Part shown: positions 62,889 to 64,000 of the stretch, one piece after another
How the letters are laid out: the number at the start of each line of letters is the position of its first letter
Numbering within the stretch: position 1 is the stretch's first letter
DNA from: an uncultured Pelagibacteraceae bacterium
GTDB taxonomy: Bacteria; Pseudomonadota; Alphaproteobacteria; Pelagibacterales; AG-422-B15
Assembly (NCBI GenBank): GCA_902564295.1
Contig: CACFAO010000006.1
Coordinates: 1 to 64,000, forward strand
Direction of reading: 5' to 3'
DNA length: 64,000 nt
The notes under the pieces: model-generated
What the model saw: the letters and a program-made list of their open reading frames with translations, nothing else
Database searches by the model: none
What the model was told of the DNA's origin: nothing
Program-made: the position numbers and the translations under genes

Positions 62889-64000
62889 ATGTCACAAAAA
62901 ATACTCATCGATGGTTCGAGTGAGACTCAAACCCAATTTGCTTTACTGTCGGATAACGGATTAGAAGATTTTGAATTTGAGTCACTCTCAAAAAAAAAAT
63001 TTAAAGGGAAATATTTATCTAGGCAAGGTTTCAAGAATTGAAGCATCCTTGCAGGCGGCGTTCGTGGATATTGGCTCTGAAAAAAATGGGTTTTTAGCAT
63101 TTGGCGAAATTCATCCAAATTACTTTCAGATGCCTGTTGCTGACAGGGAAGCCCTCATTCAGGCGGAAGCTGAGATTGAGGAACAGCACAATTCAGAGAG
63201 TGACAGCATGACTAATGAAGATTTAGATAGTTCATTAATACCTGAAGAAGTTAAAGATGAAATAGTTAATGATGCTGATTTAGATCTTAATAATAATCAA
63301 ATTGCTGAAAGAGAAAAAAAACAATATAAGCGCAAGAATAATTCAAGCCTTAGAAGAAAACTTTATCGCTCTTACAAGATACAAGAGGTTATAAAGACTG
63401 GGCAACTTATACTCGTACAAGTAGTAAAAGAGGAAAGAGGAAATAAAGGAGCAGCATTAACTTCTTATATATCTCTTGCTGGCAAATACTCTGTACTTAT
63501 GCCTAATTCAACCAAGACAATGGGTATATCTAGAAAAATTTCAGTTTCTGACGATAGAAGAAAATTAAAACAGATTATAGATGATTTAAAAGTACCCTCT
63601 GAAATGGGGCTTATCATTAGAACCGCGGGTCTAAATAAAACAAAAAATGAAATTAAAAAAGATTATTCAATTTTAAATAAACTATGGTCACAAATTGTTA
63701 ATGAAACAAAAAAAAGCAATTGCTCCTGCGTTAATACACGAAGAAGGCAATTTACTCCGAAGAATAGTAAGGGATATATATTCAAAAGAAATGAAAGAAA
63801 TTCTAGTCCAGGGCAAAGAAGCGTATAAAGAGACAAAGAAGTATATGACTCAAGTTTTACCTGGTTGCTCTAAGTTCGTAAAACTGTACAAAAGTAAAGA
63901 GCCAATATTTACCAAACATAAGGTTGAAAAAGAGATATTAAAAATGTTTGACACCGAAGTAAAACTTAAATCTGGTGGCTACTTAGTGATTAACCCGACA
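62889..64000 (+). CDS. rne: ribonuclease E/G, 3' end beyond window, in three frames as given
   Basis: MSQKILIDGSSETQT... then KGNIYLGKVSRIEASLQAAFVDIG... then AIAPALIHEEGNLLRRIVRD...; frame changes at A10 (62990-62999) and A8 (63708-63715). Confidence 0.9.

Follow-up and report, generated by a model that had tools for sequence, protein, structure and literature searches.

The window, bases 1-64000 of contig C6 (74,496 b) in a draft genome of 1.09 Mb, 35 contigs and 79% completeness, ends within a gene for RNase E that is spread, in this assembly, over three reading frames. The parts of the locus are as follows.

62889-63041, forward strand: N-terminal piece of RNase E, in frame 0, from the ATG at 62889 to the TGA at 63039-63041 past the A10 tract
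62990-62999, forward strand: A10 tract, shifting the frame by +1 with respect to relatives, whose run here is A9 at most
62998-63706, forward strand: S1/RNase H-like segment of RNase E, in the second frame, recognized by profile match and constraint
63708-63715, forward strand: A8 tract, shifting the frame by +1 where most relatives have A7
63717-64000 and on, beyond the window, to the contig TAA at 64742-64744, forward strand: catalytic segment of RNase E, in the third frame

The original prediction, which had the gene in three frames through an additional A at each of two tracts and the third frame open at the window end, agrees with the sequence: both tracts have the lengths and positions listed, and the third frame is closed by that TAA. 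No further break was seen along the gene beyond A10 and A8. The two downstream segments match the NCBIfam profile TIGR00757 (RNaseEG) with E-values of 2.6e-57 and 2.5e-77 over positions 25-186 and 194-391 of 415, thus covering the catalytic core; as a consequence of the split, neither alone reaches the curated cut-off. Gene identity is further borne out by the S1 segment with its acidic insert and by the catalytic-domain motifs IDVNSG and IDFIDM, in all of which the gene resembles the rne of other Pelagibacterales. It differs from these in the three frames of this assembly, the intact relatives having a single continuous ORF. A search of the 79%-complete draft found no second RNase E/G match.

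The protein family shows a further, separate feature. A CPxCxG-type Zn-link motif after MSRQR is absent from all Pelagibacterales RNase E sequences examined, including the one described here (around 64100-64400 of the contig), and its position is occupied by a stretch around xxW(K/E)xxLS. The motif is kept in the RNase E of a PS1-clade genome and of Bartonella. Its absence bears on whether the Pelagibacterales enzyme forms the usual tetramer.

RNase E is present in 53 of 60 relatives, with a match above the family cut-off in 49. Within the genus, the first tract consists of lysine codons with A-runs of up to nine, in frame, and the second mostly reads ACA AAA AAA GCA, an A7 that is also in frame. 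The comparison of tract lengths proposed in the original prediction thus shows the relatives in frame and places our contig at +1 in both tracts. Neither frameshift was found among the relatives compared, all of them other species, the nearest at only ~77% DNA identity to this genome. The same alignments speak to the idea that the gene is truly split, with three separately translated pieces acting together. Although a TTG or ATG in the next frame precedes each tract, the out-of-frame ATG before the second tract stems from the N-E-T codons and occurs in relatives too; moreover, the cuts would interrupt the conserved, catalytic N-terminal half of a protein that intact relatives encode as one ORF. 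We give this idea almost no credence.

The downstream segments have kept the constraint of a working gene. Measured each in its own frame, they have pN/pS values of 0.22 and 0.23, where 25 intact relatives average 0.23 for either segment, and they depart from otherwise invariant columns at 1 of 124 and 1 of 134 positions, respectively, one departure per segment. When each intact relative was left out in turn, most showed no fewer such departures than our sequence. This equality of constraint, together with the lack of any extra break, rules out an old, decayed pseudogene, in line with the impression first gained from the sequence, and is what would be expected if the cell makes normal protein. 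Judged from these sequence comparisons, the frameshifts are either of recent date, artefacts, or compensated for.

The frequency of such events in the rest of the genome was estimated by searching the proteins of a relative (G033) against 1,033,902 bases of our genome (G000). The coverage reached >=70% for 858 genes, and in the ~831 kb of coding DNA compared, four true frameshifts came to light in three genes, a rate of 0.5 per 100 kb. All four are single-base changes in homopolymers, and two of them are the RNase E A10 and A8. The remaining two lie outside the window: A6 for A5 in a 255-aa membrane protein (C8:11249) and T6 for T7 in a 199-aa protein (C11:9869). Two further junctions raised by the surveys were false, one (C2:8634) an ORF running through a tRNA and the other, in the relative (G033 C4:67201), an over-long start of a ribosomal-protein ORF. 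The predicted ORFs of our genome contain 705 A/T runs of >=8, and the genome-wide survey found none of this length out of frame in any gene besides RNase E. The earlier view that homopolymer error is not indiscriminate, formed within the window, therefore holds genome-wide.

These numbers bear on the first of the two options originally offered, that the frameshifts are tolerated through RNA polymerase slippage at both A-runs, by which a lesser part of the mRNA would come out full-length, as has been proposed for genes of Buchnera and Blochmannia. The indels do lie in long A/T runs of a constrained gene; A10 is inside the slippage-prone range, downstream constraint is strong, and a single-tract precedent exists in Blochmannia (PMC3017870). 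As in those endosymbionts, we see one-base A-run indels in an otherwise well-kept gene. The situation here differs, however, in that two tracts stand in series, a deletion rather than an insertion is needed, no genome-wide pattern accompanies them and the lineage is a planktonic marine one. Slippage would have to remove one A (or add two) at both tracts, whereas published A-run slippage is mainly +1. Of the transcription errors in Buchnera, 151 of 157 insertions were located in homopolymers vs only 16 of 57 deletions, and no frame-restoring case was detected (PMC5574713); with E. coli RNA polymerase, none of the poly(A) runs tested was rescued by deletion (PMC6260861). The yields of the two tracts would also multiply. 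Four frameshifts in ~831 kb, with no other run of >=8 out of frame, do not amount to a general tolerance of poly-A frameshifts, and neither frameshift is conserved in the relatives compared. A literature search for slippage in connection with Pelagibacter or RNase E found nothing on point. We therefore regard slippage rescue as very improbable, and its fuller form, in which a planktonic SAR11-like bacterium would obtain full-length RNase E only from doubly slipped transcripts, at a level set by transcription fidelity, as more improbable still. Ribosomal -1 frameshifting on the A-runs was rejected as acting in the wrong direction, both junctions requiring +1 (or -2).

The clustering of the events calls for separate consideration. 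Two of the four in our genome, and both of those at runs of >=8, fall in RNase E, and the probability that two random runs of this length share an ORF is 0.0014. RNase E is, on the other hand, unusually rich in such runs: it has six, or 3.2 per kb where the genome averages 0.64, a fivefold density that ranks it in the top 2% among genes with >=300 aa. This density helps to account for the clustering, though not fully.

Sister assemblies show comparable breaks. The reverse survey of G033 found zero true frameshifts in ~806 kb. A sample of another genome, G013 (~405 kb), contained four one-base breaks, or 1.0 per 100 kb of coding DNA, at the following sites.

G8, +1, in the RNase E gene of G013 itself
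A8, in a short-chain dehydrogenase
T8, in a DNA methyltransferase
T5 site, in a 642-aa protein

Across the order, RNase E is carried by 356 of 398 genomes and is frame-broken in five of these carriers (G000, G013, G065, G218 and G352), each time by a one-base homopolymer indel, at differing sites; the remaining partial matches that were examined are cut off by the end of a contig or are weak additional matches. RNase E as a hotspot of the genus, with three of ~37 genomes broken vs two rpoB breaks in 34, was considered and set aside: the excess is nominal, and is to be discounted since the gene was chosen for being broken here and is five times as rich in long runs as the genome average.

Within the genus, in G019 (C15:12135-16194) and G030 (C3:56479-58072), rpoB is split across two frames on one contig, as read from match coordinates modulo 3, which show the change of frame and leave aside the exact base or homopolymer. 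No frame breaks were found in gyrA, parC or rpoC in genomes of the genus. A cell without rpoB is not viable, the gene being indispensable; its loss could not be survived, so at least these two breaks must be errors, and they are likely to be assembly errors of the same class as those described here. Thus, genes that cannot be dispensed with, as rpoB shows, are broken in sister assemblies in like manner, and the G013 sample puts such breaks at a comparable rate.

This finding weighs on the main rival to error, a private mutation, in which a recent, real loss-of-function or low-fitness change would have arisen by replication slippage at one tract, the second following after the gene was already off. 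Such a history would account for both events in one gene, replication slippage typically occurs at long A-runs, and no other decay would be expected if the loss were very recent. RNase E is, however, kept in nearly all genomes of the order, the similar rpoB breaks in sister assemblies cannot be real losses, and two independent events without further decay would need a narrow window of time. We consider a recent mutation unlikely, although it stands well ahead of slippage.

The expected rate of error depends on how the genome was obtained. Those members of the genus that have names in the public collection are AG- genomes, listed there under Pelagibacteraceae and bearing names of the SCGC single-cell centre; judged by these members, and by its own size and number of contigs, our genome was probably produced by the same single-cell workflow. 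In a benchmark, the workflow behind these marine genomes averaged 3.0 indels per 100 kb (PMC11247762; PMC8443664); the coding-DNA rates of 0.5 in our genome and 1.0 in G013 are below this value. The breaks described here thus resemble those of amplified single-cell drafts (SCGC/GORG-Tropics workflow) in being one-base homopolymer indels, essential genes of sister assemblies included, and in their similar or lower rate, and differ in the clustering of two events in one gene.

An error of amplification, sequencing or assembly is accordingly the probable source of the two extra As, and we hold this reading with good, though incomplete, confidence. As between the two options of the original prediction, the evidence favours local assembly error; RNA polymerase slippage is not supported, given the direction that it would need and the lack of a genome-wide pattern. 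Against error stand the occurrence of both breaks at runs of >=8 in one gene and the absence of any true frameshift from ~806 kb of G033. If error is the cause, the living cell would encode an ordinary, single-frame RNase E, with A9 and A7 in its DNA. The extra As would have entered this one draft while the genome was amplified, sequenced or merged into a consensus; the gene is unusually A-rich, and the two sites are among its longest A-runs. Their occurrence in one gene would best be explained by a small region for which very few molecules served as template in the amplification, or which few reads covered.

Serial slippage control of RNase E in a planktonic oligotroph would be new, if true. 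In draft genomes of this AT-rich lineage, homopolymer frameshifts number about 0-1 for every 100 kb of coding sequence, and even rpoB has frame breaks; split essential genes in such drafts should therefore not be taken as biology unless reads support them.
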